Source: a candidate division CSSED10-310 bacterium (lineage in GTDB: Bacteria > CSSED10-310 > JAFGDC01). Taken from it: a stretch of 7,551 nucleotides of DNA. A model generated the notes under the pieces. That model ran no database searches and had not been told where the DNA came from. It saw only the letters and a list, made by a program, of their open reading frames with translations. Made by a program: the position numbers and the translations under genes. Location: contig JAFGDC010000371.1 in NCBI GenBank assembly GCA_016932295.1, forward strand, positions 1-7,551, written 5' to 3'. This document shows, piece after piece, positions 297 to 6,780 of the stretch (position 1 is the stretch's first letter; each line of letters opens with the position of its first letter).

Positions 297-1478
297 ATGT
301 ACGAGTGGTTCCATCCTGAACGGGAGAGACGATTGCTGTTGTGGAGTCGAGGAATCCCCGCGCCGCCACTCAACGTGTCGTTCCTGTTCACCCAGAAATG
401 CCAGTTTCACTGCCGGTTCTGCAATGCGACGAACCTTCTCGAAGAGGGAAAGAATCCGGACTTCCGGGAGCTGGACACCGTTGAACTGTGCCGGCTGGCC
501 GAGGCGGGAAGCCGCTTGGGGATCACCTGGTGGGAACTGGTGGGCGGGGAACCGGCATATGATATCGACCGCCTGATCACCTTCATCGAGGCAGTTCGTG
601 ATAACGGCATGTCCGGTCATCTCATCAGCAATGGATGGGGATGGACCGAAGCGGCCGCTCGTCGCGTGGTCGAAGTCGGTTGGAATGCGCTCGTATTCAG
701 CGTGTACAGCCACCGGGCCAGGATCCACGACGACCTGGTAAGACGAAAAGGCGCTCTTGATCGAATACTCGGCATTATCGGTACGATTCAGGCTCAAAAA
801 AACCGCCTTCGAAAAAAGCAACCCCACCTATATGCGAATGTCCTTATCCACCGTTACAACATCCGATCCATCCATAAGATAACCGCCCGGCTTGCCGAAT
901 CCGGTGTGAGCCAAATCAACTTTCAGAACCTCTTCCATACTCCCACCTCCGGCCGGTATCTGGAGCCATCACCCCGGCAACAACTATACCTCCAGCGACA
1001 GCTTACCAAGATCACCGCTGTGGCAGCCAAACATAAAATCGGCACCAATATTCTTACGTACAAAGATCCACGCATGTTCAAGAGCACTCCCACCGACTCT
1101 TTCCTGGAGCGCATCACCGACGAAACGGGTTTCTCCTCGGTGTTCTGTTATGATCCCTGGCTCCGTTTGAACATCAATGCCACCGGCCGGGTCTTCTGCT
1201 GCCGCACTATGATTGACAGCGGGGAATCATTTCGCGATCACGGTGACCTGCAGTCCATCTGGCAGGGCGCCGGGTTTGAACGTCTGCGGCGCGCGTTGCT
1301 CCTGAGGAAATTACCGAATTCGTGTCAGCACTGTTGCGCGCCGATCCTGGATGACAACGAGGGTATCCGGAAAGCCCTCGCAGAAAATGAAACCCGTCTT
1401 CCGACGCAACACACGGCGGCAGAAAGCGAGCCACCTATTTCAATCACGCCGGCCGACAGGATGGTGCACAGGCAATGA
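297..1478 (+). CDS. Radical SAM protein with C-terminal twitch/SPASM-like domain
   Basis: This is a 393-residue radical SAM enzyme. Such enzymes use a [4Fe-4S] cluster to cleave S-adenosylmethionine and start radical chemistry. The cluster motif CQFHCRFC is at residues 35-42 (C35, C39, C42), and the SAM-binding GGEP is at 83-86. The partial TIM barrel continues to about residue 260. A C-terminal auxiliary-cluster region follows: C284, then NATGRVFCCR (C301, C302), then CQHCC (C343, C346, C347). This is the pattern of a twitch or short SPASM domain, found in enzymes that modify peptides, among others. The last 40 residues are polar and probably disordered. The ATG at 297 is preceded by a weak GAGG at 284-287. 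The ATG at 292 opens a different frame that shows no family features. The gene overlaps the next by ATGA, so the two are probably translationally coupled. The substrate is unknown. Confidence 0.9.
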   Translation: MYEWFHPERERRLLLWSRGIPAPPLNVSFLFTQKCQFHCRFCNATNLLEEGKNPDFRELDTVELCRLAEAGSRLGITWWELVGGEPAYDIDRLITFIEAVRDNGMSGHLISNGWGWTEAAARRVVEVGWNALVFSVYSHRARIHDDLVRRKGALDRILGIIGTIQAQKNRLRKKQPHLYANVLIHRYNIRSIHKITARLAESGVSQINFQNLFHTPTSGRYLEPSPRQQLYLQRQLTKITAVAAKHKIGTNILTYKDPRMFKSTPTDSFLERITDETGFSSVFCYDPWLRLNINATGRVFCCRTMIDSGESFRDHGDLQSIWQGAGFERLRRALLLRKLPNSCQHCCAPILDDNEGIRKALAENETRLPTQHTAAESEPPISITPADRMVHRQ

Positions 1479-2422
1479 GCGACCCCATTATCGAGCCTCC
1501 TATCCAACATCTGGGAACGCAGGTGCTTGAAGACACCTTGCTTTTTCCCCACTACTGGGTCGCCACCCTGCTGCGTTCACGCATCGAAGGATGGCTCGAA
1601 GGCCTTTCCAGTCCGCCGACCATCCTTCAACTGGAATGGTGCGCCGGATCCCATGAACCGCCACCGGACGACCGGGCCGAACAATCCCTGCCCCGTCCTC
1701 TGCGCTATTTCCGGGAACAGCTCAGCAGGATCCAACACATACTCTACAAAGAAGGCATAATCTGGTGCCGGGTGAACCTGCTGGATACCACGCCCTTCGA
1801 TCGACTTCGCATCCTTATGGATAACGTGAAATCAGATGACTGCATCGCCACCATCCGCACCAATACTTTCACATGGCTCCCACGGGATCTCGAAAGAATG
1901 GTAATCACGAGATGGGATGAACTGATACTGGCTCCCGATCCCCCCGCCCATGACCAGGCGCAATGGGGCGGGTTGCGTACCATGCTTCGGAGCGTGGAGG
2001 ATTACAAAAGAACTTTCAGCAGTCCCCTTCCCCATGTCACCATCATAAATCATGCATCCAGGGCCTCCGGTTCGTCACGTCAGGTTGGCGGCCCAGGAGA
2101 TGACACGGTATCTGATCAGTCAGGTCCAGGACCGTTCTGTATTGAACCGCTGTTGATGCTCGTCCTGTCCTCGGATGGTTCATACAGCATCTGTCGCGGC
2201 GGGCTGCTCAAAACCCCCTTTCGGGATGTATCGGAACTTATGCCATTCTGGATGGGCGAAGCCGCCATGGCCATTCGCCGGGCACTCGCCGAACACCAGC
2301 CGGTGCCGGAATGCGCCAACTGTCCGTATCGAAACGATCCATTCAACAGGCTGTTGGCCTCCTGCCGCACCGGCGGTTCGTCGATGCTTCGTTCCCTTCG
2401 CACCATCCCCGACCGGTCATGA
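1475..2422 (+). CDS. Degenerate radical SAM/SPASM-like partner lacking the catalytic cluster motif
   Basis: This 315-residue protein has no CxxxCxxC anywhere, yet it appears to be a paralogue of the preceding enzyme. Its C-terminal cysteines C222, C240, C280 and C283 are spaced x17, x39, x2. The neighbour's C284, C302, C343 and C346 are spaced x17, x40, x2. The surrounding text also matches: an SSDGSYSICR segment against NATGRVFCCR. Residues 124-160 (IRTNTFTWLPRDLERM, then WDELILAPDPPAHD) align with the neighbour's LISNGWGWTEAAARRV, then WNALVFSVYSHRARIHD. Where the neighbour has CxxxCxxC this protein has LEWCAGSHEPP, with one cysteine. Where the neighbour has GGEP it has LDTTP. It is therefore likely unable to cleave SAM but able to hold one auxiliary Fe-S cluster. 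A role as partner, scaffold or substrate-binding subunit is inferred. GeoRSP systems are a known precedent for pairing a radical SAM/SPASM enzyme with a SPASM protein. The frame is intact, so this is not a decayed pseudogene. The start overlaps the previous stop. Confidence 0.8.
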   Translation: MSDPIIEPPIQHLGTQVLEDTLLFPHYWVATLLRSRIEGWLEGLSSPPTILQLEWCAGSHEPPPDDRAEQSLPRPLRYFREQLSRIQHILYKEGIIWCRVNLLDTTPFDRLRILMDNVKSDDCIATIRTNTFTWLPRDLERMVITRWDELILAPDPPAHDQAQWGGLRTMLRSVEDYKRTFSSPLPHVTIINHASRASGSSRQVGGPGDDTVSDQSGPGPFCIEPLLMLVLSSDGSYSICRGGLLKTPFRDVSELMPFWMGEAAMAIRRALAEHQPVPECANCPYRNDPFNRLLASCRTGGSSMLRSLRTIPDRS

Positions 2423-2453
2423 CCCGCCTCACCACGCGGCGCCACGTCATGAC
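2416..2453. repeat. Two copies of the 8-bp palindrome GTCATGAC, 30 bp apart
   Basis: GTCATGAC is its own reverse complement and occurs at 2416-2423, overlapping the stop of the partner gene, and again at 2446-2453. The start-to-start distance of 30 bp is close to three helical turns, so both copies would lie on about the same face of the DNA. The second copy ends 14 bp before the -35 box of the tRNA-His promoter. This suggests paired regulator sites, but no regulator is visible and chance cannot be excluded. Confidence 0.4.
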
Positions 2454-2467
2454 TATCGACTTTTCGC

Positions 2468-2496
2468 TTGACATCTCCAGGCTGCATCCGCACAAT
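2468..2496 (+). promoter_or_regulatory. Sigma70-type promoter of tRNA-His
   Basis: TTGACA at 2468-2473 is a perfect -35 box. CACAAT at 2491-2496 matches the -10 consensus at four of six positions, with the optimal 17-bp spacer. Transcription would start near 2503, about ten bases before the mature tRNA 5' end, which fits a short leader removed by RNase P. Confidence 0.75.
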
Positions 2497-2511
2497 ACAG
2501 CGGCCTTCAAT

Positions 2512-2586
2512 GGTGGGTATAGCTCAATTGGTTAGAGCGCCAGACTGTGGATCTGGAGGCTGAGGGTTCAAGTCCCTCTACCCACC
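2512..2586 (+). tRNA. tRNA-His (anticodon GTG)
   Basis: A full cloverleaf can be drawn. The acceptor stem is GTGGGTA (2513-2519) with TACCCAC (2579-2585). The D stem is GCTC/GAGC. The anticodon stem is CCAGA/TCTGG around the loop CTGTGGA, with anticodon GTG at 2547-2549. The T stem is GAGGG/CCCTC with loop TTCAAGT. The histidine-specific extra G at position -1 is encoded (2512) and faces the discriminator C73 (2586), the bacterial identity pair for HisRS. The bases after C73 are CTT, so the CCA end is not encoded and must be added by tRNA nucleotidyltransferase. The gene has its own promoter and terminator. Confidence 0.97.
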
Positions 2587-2595
2587 CTTACCAGG

Positions 2596-2622
2596 ACCGG
2601 CGCGACCAGCGCCGGTTTTTTT
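2596..2622 (+). terminator. Intrinsic terminator of tRNA-His
   Basis: ACCGGCGC at 2596-2603 and GCGCCGGT at 2609-2616 form a perfect 8-bp GC-rich stem with a 5-base loop, followed by seven consecutive T (2616-2622). It starts ten bases after the tRNA 3' end. It therefore closes the tRNA unit and keeps transcription out of the convergent gene downstream. Confidence 0.93.
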
Positions 2623-2662
2623 GTTCCATGGTAAAGATGTGGCCGCCGACACATCATCACCC

Positions 2663-2698
2663 GGGCGATCGCCCCTCATTCCCGCGGCGGGAATGGGG
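2663..2698. repeat. Adjacent palindrome and hairpin at the 3' end of the DUF3592-like gene
   Basis: A perfect 12-bp palindrome, GGGCGATCGCCC, lies at 2663-2674, immediately after the minus-strand stop codon. Next to it, inside the last codons of the gene, CATTCCCG (2677-2684) and CGGGAATG (2688-2695) form a perfect 8-bp inverted repeat with a 3-base loop. On the minus-strand transcript these could make tandem hairpins that stop transcription or protect the 3' end. No T-run follows, so this is not a standard intrinsic terminator. Confidence 0.45.
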
Positions 2699-3332
2699 TA
2701 TTGTGATCCGGCGCCATGGGATCGTAAACCACATGGATCCTGTGACCCGGCTGCAAGCCCAGTGCCGTTTCTGGTTTCATCCCCCACTGACTGAAATGTG
2801 TCGCACCACGTGCGGTGAACGAATAACAGACAATTATATTTTCTCCCCCGAAAACATAGCCAGTCGGTACCCGGACCCGCTTGGCCCAGCCCGGCAGGCA
2901 GATATCCAGCGTGTTCGTCTCCCTGTATTCATCCGCGAACGACTTCATGGATTCAATGGTGGCCACCGCCGAAGCGCCATCGGCCAGCACGCCGTAATAC
3001 TCTTTCTGCAGATCACGATGACCTCTCCAGACATTGTACGACTGCTGGAGGAGGGGCAGGAAACCAAGTATGGCGATACTCCAATGCCCGGTGGCCATGG
3101 CCAGACCGCCGAAGAACAGCAGAAAGGGGAGTGTGAACGGCAACCCCCTCCAGGCGGTATTGAGACGAAACTCGCTGCGTCGCCTGAACGCTCTCGGGAT
3201 TTCCCTGGGAGGCGGCGGGGGGGGCGGGCCGGGATCATCTCCCGGCGGAAATGGCAGCGACAGGCCACACACATTGCAGTGTAGCGCCTTGCCCACCCGG
3301 TACGCACGACACCAGGGACATCGTAACGCCAT
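2676..3332 (-). CDS. Zinc-ribbon membrane protein with DUF3592-like domain
   Basis: This 218-residue protein has no assigned function. An N-terminal zinc ribbon is seen as CPWC (C5, C8) and CNVC (C19, C22). A hinge with seven consecutive prolines (36-42) and a basic stretch (RAFRRR) follow. Two hydrophobic segments at about 64-82 and 84-98 probably form a membrane hairpin. The rest (about 113-214) resembles DUF3592, a domain seen in small bacterial membrane proteins. The supporting features are a CYSFTARG strand, a GLQPGHRIHVVYDP segment and a final DHNTPF. I chose the ATG at 3332 because AGGAGG sits seven bases upstream. An in-frame ATG at 3350 would add six residues but lies on the far side of that site. 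The gene converges with tRNA-His and diverges from the protease operon. The zinc ribbon suggests metal-stabilised binding of a partner at the cytoplasmic face, which is inference. Confidence 0.85.
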   Translation of the reverse strand: MALRCPWCRAYRVGKALHCNVCGLSLPFPPGDDPGPPPPPPPREIPRAFRRRSEFRLNTAWRGLPFTLPFLLFFGGLAMATGHWSIAILGFLPLLQQSYNVWRGHRDLQKEYYGVLADGASAVATIESMKSFADEYRETNTLDICLPGWAKRVRVPTGYVFGGENIIVCYSFTARGATHFSQWGMKPETALGLQPGHRIHVVYDPMAPDHNTPFPPRE

Positions 3333-3339
3333 GGAGCGA

Positions 3340-3345
3340 CCTCCT
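3340..3345 (-). promoter_or_regulatory. Strong Shine-Dalgarno site fixing the start at 3332
   Basis: The minus strand reads AGGAGG seven bases before the ATG at 3332. This decides between two in-frame ATG codons (3350 and 3332) in favour of the downstream one. Confidence 0.85.
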
Positions 3346-3608
3346 CTCATGTCTTACGCCGGCATCCACCCGCGTGTTCCGCATGCAGATTGAGTATCCT
3401 GTTCATTCGAAGTTGTCCAGCATCCGCATGATGGTTCGATCTAACCGGTTGAGCATGGTTGGTTACAGGGCATCGCCGCCGGCGGTAGCCATGGCACCCG
3501 GAGAGTCTCTCCACCACTGACTGGTCGCGCAGGTCACCGTTTGGTTCCGGAACGATTTGCATCGGGCGCTGATTGGAAGTAAAAAATACGAAGCACATCA
3601 CAATGGTC
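3346..3608. other. Divergent intergenic region
   Basis: The region separates the minus-strand membrane protein gene from the plus-strand protease operon and should hold both promoters. For the protease, TTGCAT (3557-3562) and TAAAAA (3580-3585) with a 17-bp spacer are a weak candidate. For the minus-strand gene, TGGACA (3414-3419) and GATACT (3393-3398) on the minus strand have only a 15-bp spacer. A perfect 10-bp palindrome, GTTCCGGAAC, is at 3544-3553, just upstream of the first candidate. No open frame here looks like a gene. Confidence 0.5.
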
Positions 3609-3618
3609 GAGGGGAGCC

Positions 3619-5391
3619 ATGGCAAGGAAATCCATCTGCGCAAGACTATCCGAACGATCGGGCTGGCCAGTGAGCCTTTGCCTGGCGGTCATCTGTCTCA
3701 TCCGGCCGAATTTCACCCAGGGAGCCGGAACAACGTGGGATCCAGCCGCTTCGGTGGTGTCGGCCACCGGGGTGATTGAACGGTATCACAGGGATCTCGG
3801 CAACCTGACAGCCGCCCAGGAAGCCTTCGCCGCGGCAGCGTTGCGCAGCCGGCCGGAAAGCATCGGCTACCATCAGTCGTCATGTTATCCAATCCGCAGT
3901 CACTATCCCGATGTCGCATACTCCGGCATGGCCCTGGAAATCCTGGGTATCATGGAGTACTCCTGGGAGGTCCAGGTGGACGGCTTGGGATTCAGAGCGC
4001 CGCCGGCGGACTATGGAGAAGGCGGCAGCAACGATCTCGATGTCTATATCCAGGACCTGCCGGCAGGCATCGGCGGCTTCGCCGCGTTCTCGAGTTACAT
4101 CGATGAGACTCCGGAAGCAGATGCCGCCAGCTTCATCGTCCTCTCCTCCGCCCTCACTCAGGCCAACCTGCGGGGTTCCGCCACGCACGAGTTCAATCAT
4201 TGTTGCCAGAATGCGGTTGATTACTGGGAACACATGACATTCAAGGAGAACACCGCCACCTGGGTGATGGATCGCGTCTACGACGATGAAAACGCCTACT
4301 TCTTCTTCCTGCGTGCATACCAGCGCCATCCCCACTGGGCGATCCACAAGTTCAGCACGGACACGACATATCAATACGGGGAGTGTATGCTGCTGCATTT
4401 TCTGAGCGAGTACTATTCCGGCCGGGATGGTTCGATCATCGCCCGCTGGTGGGAGGAATGCGCGCAGAACGAACAGTTCAACGAGCCGGACTACATGGAT
4501 GTGCTGCGGGATCTCATCCCCCGAGAGACCCGGGGTCGTGACACGATGGCGGATGCGTTGCGCGAGTACGGCATCTGGCGCTACGCCTGCGCCGGCCGCG
4601 ACGACGGGCGTCATTTTCACGACGGCGGCGCCTGGCCGGACGGCGCCCTGGTGGCGATCGACACCGAGGTGGATGCAGCCAGCCTGCCTTACCTGGGCGG
4701 ACCGGTGGAGCCACCCGCCGATTTCGGTTACAGTTTCTGGCGCCTGCTCGGCCAGCCCGGAGATGACTGGCTGGCGATCGAGTTCGACGGTGATCCGGCG
4801 GTGGGCTGGGAAGTGACACTCATCCAGCGCACCGCGGGACCCACCTATCTTGCCCGGTCCATGACCGTCACCGCCGGCCGCGGCCTTCTTCTGGTCGGAC
4901 CTGAAACCCTTGCCCGTAATGAAGAAACCGTCCTGGCGGTGCTCAACCTGTCCAATCCTGAATTCGATCCCGACGGCAACGAAGACAATCCGCGGGGGTT
5001 CACGGTCTCGATCAACGGGGTCCGCCGCGGCGACTCCCTGTCCATCTGGAGCGACCGGCCCATGCATGGCGGCGGCGACATCCTCAACCTGAACCTTGAT
5101 ATCGAACATTCCGGCGGAAACATGACAACCCAGTTGTATGTTGTTCTGGAACTGTATGGAGAGTACCTGTTTCTGTCAGCCGAACCGGCGTACCCCGCCT
5201 TCACATCCGCCACGAACTGGTTCGAGCTGCCCCTGCCACCGGATTTTTCGGTTTCGATACCACTCCTCGCCCTGGAACTGCCCGCCCTGCCGGAACCGCT
5301 GCACCTCACATGGCACGCGGCGCTGCTCCAGGGTGCAGACCTGATAACGTATGCATCCTCGAAAGACACCCTTATCCCGCAACGTCGTTGA
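3619..5391 (+). CDS. Secreted zinc metalloprotease, MXAN_6640-like, with C-terminal shared domain
   Basis: This 590-residue protein has a basic N-terminus and a hydrophobic stretch at about 16-28, consistent with a Sec signal peptide ending near residue 35. A DLDVYIQD segment (139-146) precedes the catalytic motif HEFNH at 190-194, whose His residues bind zinc and whose Glu is the general base. The downstream KENTATW (E210) matches the position where this type of family places a conserved Glu before Thr-Ala-Thr-Trp, a likely third ligand. Residues 195-330 are helical, and 365-470 look like beta-sandwich. The last about 115 residues (473-590) resemble the C-terminus of the next gene. The ATG at 3619 follows GAGGGGAG (3609-3616) with short spacing, and no other start nearby keeps the signal peptide. 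Its substrate is unknown. It probably forms an operon with the gene that starts 15 bases after its stop. The MXAN_6640 assignment is from motif memory only. Confidence 0.83.
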   Translation: MARKSICARLSERSGWPVSLCLAVICLIRPNFTQGAGTTWDPAASVVSATGVIERYHRDLGNLTAAQEAFAAAALRSRPESIGYHQSSCYPIRSHYPDVAYSGMALEILGIMEYSWEVQVDGLGFRAPPADYGEGGSNDLDVYIQDLPAGIGGFAAFSSYIDETPEADAASFIVLSSALTQANLRGSATHEFNHCCQNAVDYWEHMTFKENTATWVMDRVYDDENAYFFFLRAYQRHPHWAIHKFSTDTTYQYGECMLLHFLSEYYSGRDGSIIARWWEECAQNEQFNEPDYMDVLRDLIPRETRGRDTMADALREYGIWRYACAGRDDGRHFHDGGAWPDGALVAIDTEVDAASLPYLGGPVEPPADFGYSFWRLLGQPGDDWLAIEFDGDPAVGWEVTLIQRTAGPTYLARSMTVTAGRGLLLVGPETLARNEETVLAVLNLSNPEFDPDGNEDNPRGFTVSINGVRRGDSLSIWSDRPMHGGGDILNLNLDIEHSGGNMTTQLYVVLELYGEYLFLSAEPAYPAFTSATNWFELPLPPDFSVSIPLLALELPALPEPLHLTWHAALLQGADLITYASSKDTLIPQRR

Positions 5392-5394
5392 ATG

Positions 5395-5400
5395 AAGGAG
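5395..5400 (+). promoter_or_regulatory. Shine-Dalgarno site deciding the start at 5407
   Basis: AAGGAG lies six bases before the ATG at 5407, an ideal distance. An in-frame ATG at 5392 directly follows the previous stop (TGAATG) but lies upstream of this site and has no ribosome binding site of its own at a comparable distance. Starting at 5407 also gives a cleaner signal peptide. Confidence 0.8.
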
Positions 5401-5406
5401 CGTGTG

Positions 5407-6780
5407 ATGAGCAAATCATTTACTGCCGGACTGTTGATCCTGGCAGCCATGACGGCGCCGGCCGCCGCCGAATTCAAGTGGCTGCAGAATGACGGTTTCA
5501 GCATGGGCGGCATGGCGTATTACCAGATGGGGTTCGTCGCCACTGAGATATGTGCGGCCACCTACACACCGTTCATGGGCGATTACCCGGTGAAACTGTC
5601 GACGGTCCGCATTCTGGTTCAGGACGGCGCCGGCGGCAGCGCTTCCCGCGACTTCGTCCTGCGCGTCTGGGAGGACAGCGGCACCACCCAGCCCGGCGCG
5701 CTGCTGCTGGAAGAAACCCGCACCCTCACCGCCAGCACCAACTGGCAGGACGTGGATATCGCCGGCCACAACATCATTGTCAGCAGCGGCAGCATCCGGG
5801 TGGGCTTCGAATTCACCGGCGCGCCGCCACCGAGCTTCTGCCGCGATGCCGACGGCACCATCACTCCGCACCGCAATCTGATAAAACTCGACATCGGCAC
5901 GTGGGTCTGGGCCGAATCCCTAGGGCTGCAGGGCGATTGGATACTGCGGCTGGGAGTGGAAACGAACTACGGCGGGGCCACGGCGACACCGACACCGAGC
6001 CCGACGATCCCGGGTGCCACCGCCACGCCGACCCCAACGCCCGTAACCACGCCCGGAGGGGACGAAGGGGAGATCAACTGGGATGCGGCCGAGTATTTCG
6101 GTCTTGACGCCCATGGCAGATTGACCGTTGTGGATGGCAATCTGGACGGCGATCCGGGACTACAGGAACAGATCGACGTGTGGGTCTGGAGCCAGTCTGA
6201 TCCATACCCGTCAGGTATTTCCGTCACGCTGTATGAAACATCCCTGTCCAGTGACACGTTTCAATCGGTGTATCCGCACGTGGGATTCACCGACGCCGCT
6301 TCGGACGACATGGAGAATCTGATTCATGTGGCTGACAATGATCCGGTGTACGCGCGTTACCTGGACGATTCTCCTGTCGGTGAACACATTGCATCCGCCC
6401 GATGGCATGCGTACCAGGGCATCTCCATCACGCTGGAAATGCCGTCACACAGCATCTCCGACGGCGACCAGTGCTGGCTGAACCTGGACTTCTCCAATTC
6501 GGGAGATACCAGCCAGGTCGATCTGTACGTCCTGCTGGATGTTTTCGGCTCCTACTTCGCCTATCCGTCATGGAATGCCATCGATCTGGGCCTCGACCAC
6601 GGCGACCTGTTCATTCCCGGCGCTTACCAGGACACCATCGAAGTGCTCGATCCCTTCACCATGCCGCCGGTGGATCCCGTCGGTCCGCTGTTCTTCCACG
6701 CCGCCATGTTCGAAGATGGTGAACTCACCATCGACACCATGATCTCCAACCTGTCCACCTGGGAGTTCTCACTCCGGTAA
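5407..6780 (+). CDS. Secreted two-domain beta-rich protein with Thr-Pro linker, function unknown
   Basis: From the ATG at 5407 the protein has 457 residues. It begins with a textbook signal peptide (MSKSFTAGLLILAAMTAPAAA) predicted to be cleaved before EFKW. Residues 22-188 form a beta-rich domain containing LSTVRILVQDG, LRVWEDSG and GDWILRLGVE, like extracellular jelly-roll domains of unknown role. A disordered Thr-Pro linker covers about 190-218. Residues 235-320 resemble a repeat seen in secreted bacterial proteins that has an ET motif followed by an acidic VADNDPVYARYLDD segment. The final part (340-457), with GDQCWLNLDFSNSG and DLYVLLDVFGSYF, resembles the C-terminus of the metalloprotease just upstream. 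No catalytic motif is seen. It is co-transcribed with the protease, so it may be its substrate, partner or a co-displayed surface protein, which is inference. An alternative start at 5392 adds five residues. Confidence 0.85.
   Translation: MSKSFTAGLLILAAMTAPAAAEFKWLQNDGFSMGGMAYYQMGFVATEICAATYTPFMGDYPVKLSTVRILVQDGAGGSASRDFVLRVWEDSGTTQPGALLLEETRTLTASTNWQDVDIAGHNIIVSSGSIRVGFEFTGAPPPSFCRDADGTITPHRNLIKLDIGTWVWAESLGLQGDWILRLGVETNYGGATATPTPSPTIPGATATPTPTPVTTPGGDEGEINWDAAEYFGLDAHGRLTVVDGNLDGDPGLQEQIDVWVWSQSDPYPSGISVTLYETSLSSDTFQSVYPHVGFTDAASDDMENLIHVADNDPVYARYLDDSPVGEHIASARWHAYQGISITLEMPSHSISDGDQCWLNLDFSNSGDTSQVDLYVLLDVFGSYFAYPSWNAIDLGLDHGDLFIPGAYQDTIEVLDPFTMPPVDPVGPLFFHAAMFEDGELTIDTMISNLSTWEFSLR
5974..6054 (+). 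repeat. Duplicated Thr-Pro linker coding repeat
   Basis: The linker consists of two copies of one unit: GATATPTPSPTIP (5974-6012) followed by GATATPTPTPVTTP (6013-6054). The protein repeat is clear, but the codons differ between copies, so the duplication is old or kept by selection on the amino-acid sequence. Such linkers are flexible spacers between extracellular domains and may be glycosylated. Confidence 0.8.

Follow-up and report, generated by a model that had tools for sequence, protein, structure and literature searches.

Relation to Described Systems

Auxiliary iron–sulfur (Fe–S) clusters are common in radical S-adenosylmethionine (SAM) enzymes and their role is largely enigmatic (PMC10470005). 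In the radical SAM heterodimer Dph1–Dph2 each subunit holds an Fe–S cluster, a functional SAM pocket is present in Dph1 only, and both subunits have non-canonical cysteine spacings (PMC11048331). Here we describe two overlapping genes on contig JAFGDC010000371.1 of a candidate division CSSED10-310 bacterium, which was analyzed over its whole length of 7551 bases (the window). The upstream gene encodes a radical SAM enzyme with a twitch domain (P0002), and the downstream gene a related protein (P0001) that lacks the SAM motifs and retains the cysteines of the auxiliary site. These features fit a non-catalytic partner better than a broken gene. Dph1–Dph2 is eukaryotic and has CX3CX2C in neither subunit; it offers a mechanistic analogy to P0001/P0002 and not a family to which they belong.

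The concept of a radical SAM protein that has lost its activity is not new, since NCBIfam contains the pseudo-SAM/SPASM family TIGR04347. This family resembles P0001 in being radical SAM-like and named 'pseudo' (by its NCBIfam name only), but P0001 does not match it at E-values up to 1 and P0002 scores 35.2 bits against a cut-off of 525. The SPASM radical SAM enzyme PqqE also differs, as P0002 reaches 47.6 bits where 381 are required and no pqq genes are annotated in the window, while the likeness to BlsE and DesII is in the fold alone (12–13% identity). The first 74 positions of the twitch-type radical SAM family NF033640, its cysteine domain, match residues 281–348 of P0002 (35.1 bits) and residues 221–288 of P0001 (17.9 bits), but both proteins stay far under the cut-off of 170 and P0001 has neither CxxxCxxC nor GGEP and appears to lack the strand 5–6 part of the barrel. 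Among the matches listed from open-licence literature on radical SAM/SPASM pseudoenzymes, partners and heterodimers, no title or beginning of an abstract described a bacterial pair of an active and an inactive radical SAM protein.

Lost SAM Motifs and Retained Cysteines

P0002 is predicted to be a radical SAM/SPASM-twitch enzyme, as it contains both Pfam domains (PF04055, 39.6 bits with cut-off 29.5; PF13186, 23.7 bits with cut-off 21.5), CxxxCxxC and GGEP (Table 1). The SAM-cluster motif CxxxCxxC occurs nowhere in P0001. The original prediction held that a segment with one cysteine had taken its place, and C56 is indeed alone in this region; the predicted replacement of GGEP, the loop for the SAM amino group, by LDTTP was likewise seen in the alignment with P0002. 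Since the strand 5–6 part of the barrel appears to be absent as well (see below), we do not expect P0001 to bind SAM in the usual way.

The auxiliary site was retained, as had been claimed. C222, C240, C280 and C283 follow the four-cysteine order of twitch domains and occupy columns that are invariant in alignment A10, and from its sequence P0001 would be expected to hold a single auxiliary cluster through them. Overall, P0001 has about 24% identity to P0002, with the strongest conservation in the twitch domain. This domain scores 13.7 bits against PF13186, under the cut-off, and P0001 reached the cut-off of no family in Pfam or NCBIfam.

Table 1. Features of the window.
Feature	Position	Strand	Remarks
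P0002, radical SAM/twitch-type enzyme, 393 aa	297..1478	+	PF04055 and PF13186 above cut-off
P0002 CxxxCxxC (CQFHCRFC), residues 35–42	399..422	+	invariant in alignment A12
P0002 GGEP, residues 83–86	543..554	+	
P0002 twitch cysteines, C284 to C347	1146..1337	+	
P0001, pseudo-radical-SAM twitch protein, 315 aa	1475..2422	+	ATGA overlap with P0002 stop
P0001 presumed half-barrel, strands 1–4 and helices 1–4, residues 50–181	1622..2017	+	AlphaFold2 model, VIA-align
P0001 C56, sole cysteine near lost CxxxCxxC	1640..1642	+	
P0001 LDTTP, residues 103–107, at GGEP position	1781..1795	+	alignment with P0002
P0001 twitch-type cysteines C222, C240, C280, C283	2138..2323	+	
tRNA-His	2513–2587	+	
224-aa open reading frame	2676–3350	-	
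590-aa relative of MXAN_6640 metalloprotease family	3619–5391	+	109.7 bits, under cut-off 140
462-aa protein with TPTP-type linker	5392–6780	+	
PMT_2-like protein, start only	7032 on	+	19.9 bits, under cut-off

Intactness of the P0001 Gene

Several observations bear out the claim that the P0001 frame is intact. The start codon overlaps the TGA of P0002 in the ATGA at 1475–1478. When three genes of the contig (P0002, the metalloprotease relative and the TPTP protein) served as the training set for codon log-odds, the frame gained +0.18 per codon and the other five frames were negative. The G+C fractions at the three codon positions (0.60, 0.49 and 0.63) were similar to those of P0002 (0.58, 0.45 and 0.66), and when the bases of P0001 were shuffled the frame stayed open in only 2 of 20000 cases. 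A ribosome-binding site at the usual spacing was not found for P0001; an AGGA lies 13 bases upstream of the start.

These results bear on the possibility that P0001 is a radical SAM gene copy in decay that has yet to acquire a stop codon. The loss of the SAM motifs and, apparently, of the strand 5–6 part and the lack of a homologue would fit such a copy, but its codon bias is like that of the other genes and all four twitch cysteines are retained. Because of the low identity to P0002 and the rarity of open shuffles, a neutral copy would have lost its frame long ago, and we consider decay very unlikely.

The N-terminal Part of P0001

The original prediction aligned P0001 with P0002 through both the barrel and the C-terminal domain. 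The homology of the twitch domains is firm, but that of the barrel is weak and covers half a barrel at most, the one point on which the original observation needs correcting. An AlphaFold2 model, guided by the alignment, had a predicted local distance difference test score of 52.1 (43–74 per ten-residue block over the half-barrel) and, at this low confidence, showed strands 1–4 of the six expected in a partial TIM barrel and no strands 5–6; the best matches of the model in VIA-align were radical SAM folds. In this model the last third of the barrel (the strand 5–6 part) is lost, which the earlier reading overlooked. Mere recent damage of the two SAM motifs is less likely for that reason, as about a third of the barrel would have gone with them.

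Alternatively, the N-terminal 210 residues could be another alpha/beta domain, fused to a twitch domain that came from the neighbor. For the barrel part alone the shuffle test gave 14 of 5000, with a score only 1–2 points above other open reading frames (ORFs), and the end-free global test gave 122 of 1000. Profile methods detected only the twitch part, no radical SAM match was found in Pfam or NCBIfam, the model is of low confidence and was itself guided by the alignment, and PADLOC gave a short and weak match of residues 65–131 to a type III methyltransferase model (14.8 bits, E 0.0022). All of this would suit a domain other than a barrel. The profile search, which had been proposed as a check, returned nothing at cut-off for a radical SAM or SPASM family, and the off-topic matches were weak. 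We consider a non-barrel domain unlikely. The top Foldseek match of P0001 was 2yxb, also weak (template modeling scores 0.20/0.38). Compared with solved chains, P0001 matched nothing but subunit 6 of cytochrome bc1, with E-values of 1.1 and 1.6, and this match was rejected.

Proposed Role of P0001

We propose that P0001 is an old paralog of P0002 that lost the SAM-binding [4Fe-4S] site, the GGEP loop and the final third of its barrel, kept the auxiliary site and now serves as a non-catalytic subunit of P0002, a reading to which we give a probability of somewhat under one half. It is plausible and the best available, but is based on one sequence; the interpretation in the original prediction is supported in part. 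The ATGA overlap would couple translation, so that both chains are made together, and P0001 would fold into a half-barrel and a twitch domain with one [4Fe-4S] cluster. As the genes overlap and share ancestry, a hetero-oligomer is suggested, in which P0001, docked on P0002 and not itself catalytic, would hold substrate or stabilize the complex and perhaps pass electrons, and P0002 alone would cleave SAM. A more specific version is a split-function enzyme in which the half-barrel protein is a dedicated subunit whose own auxiliary [4Fe-4S] cluster serves the active twin in trans, either relaying electrons or anchoring the substrate; this we regard as doubtful.

P0001 might also work independently of P0002, as a stand-alone twitch protein of radical SAM ancestry that holds an Fe–S cluster (or zinc) and acts as redox carrier or regulator, co-transcribed with P0002 and forming no complex with it. 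The four cysteines could hold a cluster by themselves and conservation is best in the twitch domain, but the ATGA overlap and the fact that P0001 is most similar to its own neighbor favor a joint function, which makes this explanation improbable. Lastly, P0001 could itself be catalytic with an atypical cluster, if C56, C98 and C123, all within the presumed half-barrel, met at its mouth. Dph1 and Dph2 provide a precedent for non-canonical cysteine spacing (PMC11048331), but the usual SAM pocket is absent from P0001, since GGEP and, as it appears, the strand 5–6 part are missing, and catalysis by P0001 seems highly improbable.

Tandem Radical SAM Genes at Other Loci

A scan of viral contigs with alignment A6, a set of distant twitch enzymes that excludes P0002, yielded 25 loci. 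Together with plasmids and phages there were 39 distinct loci, all fetched for their likeness to radical SAM proteins (L018 and L019, duplicates of L013 and L012, were counted once; L006 scored too low to be included). Two tandem radical SAM genes less than 600 bases apart occurred at seven of the 39 (L013, L015, L027, L028, L032, L035 and L036), with L015 and L028 beside sugar/cell-surface-type genes. CxxxCxxC was present in 56 of 63 profile-matched ORF rows (including P0002 and repeats), one had CX3CX5C, and the other six, which lack the motif, all start at the left boundary of the locus concerned. Tandem twins are therefore not rare in this broad group, and a motif-less twin was seen in the present window alone. 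Such pairs, including hxsB/hxsC at L006 and those in sugar-type clusters, resemble P0001/P0002 in having adjacent, sometimes overlapping genes, but carry CxxxCxxC in both members or, at L028, CX3CX5C in one. The latter (2995–4107) is a twitch-type radical SAM protein with CTYRCKYDNYC instead of CX3CX2C, and overlaps the stop codon of its canonical twin. At L041 an ORF of 762 aa (1696–3981), which also matches radical SAM proteins, has about twice the usual length.

Homolog Searches and Neighboring Genes

In a collection of 5.77 billion proteins, where the search can detect a relative only if five-residue words are shared, P0001 found only itself, both as a whole (1605 candidates) and with residues 208–300 (15 candidates), and so did P0002 (7999 scored candidates). 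With P0002, none of 60 stretches in genome contigs and none of 21 in viral contigs was confirmed. P0001 gave no stretch in viral contigs and no relative in plasmids and phages at E-values up to 1. Given the five-residue-word reach, and since genome contigs were not searched with P0001, this points to rarity rather than uniqueness. A tRNA-His pattern with a few free positions had no match in genome contigs, which, with the lack of detectable relatives of P0001 and P0002, suggests a poorly sampled lineage. The metalloprotease relative gave one unconfirmed stretch in viral contigs and none in plasmids.

Downstream of P0001, a 38-codon ORF (2419–2535) begins within an ATGA that it shares with the P0001 stop and reaches into the tRNA-His gene; it is probably due to chance. 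A sigma-70-like site (TTGACA-17-CACAAT, 10/12; region 2468–2619) lies just 5' of the tRNA gene and a terminator-like hairpin (2593–2619) 3' of it, so the tRNA may have its own transcription; counts of promoter-like and terminator-like sites were close to shuffle expectation. The C-terminal parts of the putative MXAN_6640-type metalloprotease and the TPTP-linker protein (together 3619–6780) are similar by eye.

Implications

If P0001 is indeed such a partner, a natural protein that has kept the auxiliary site alone and is paired with an active twin would uncouple the role of the auxiliary cluster from SAM cleavage, and that role could be tested with the two purified proteins. Partners of this kind would also escape annotation, as Pfam and NCBIfam give P0001 no radical SAM call.
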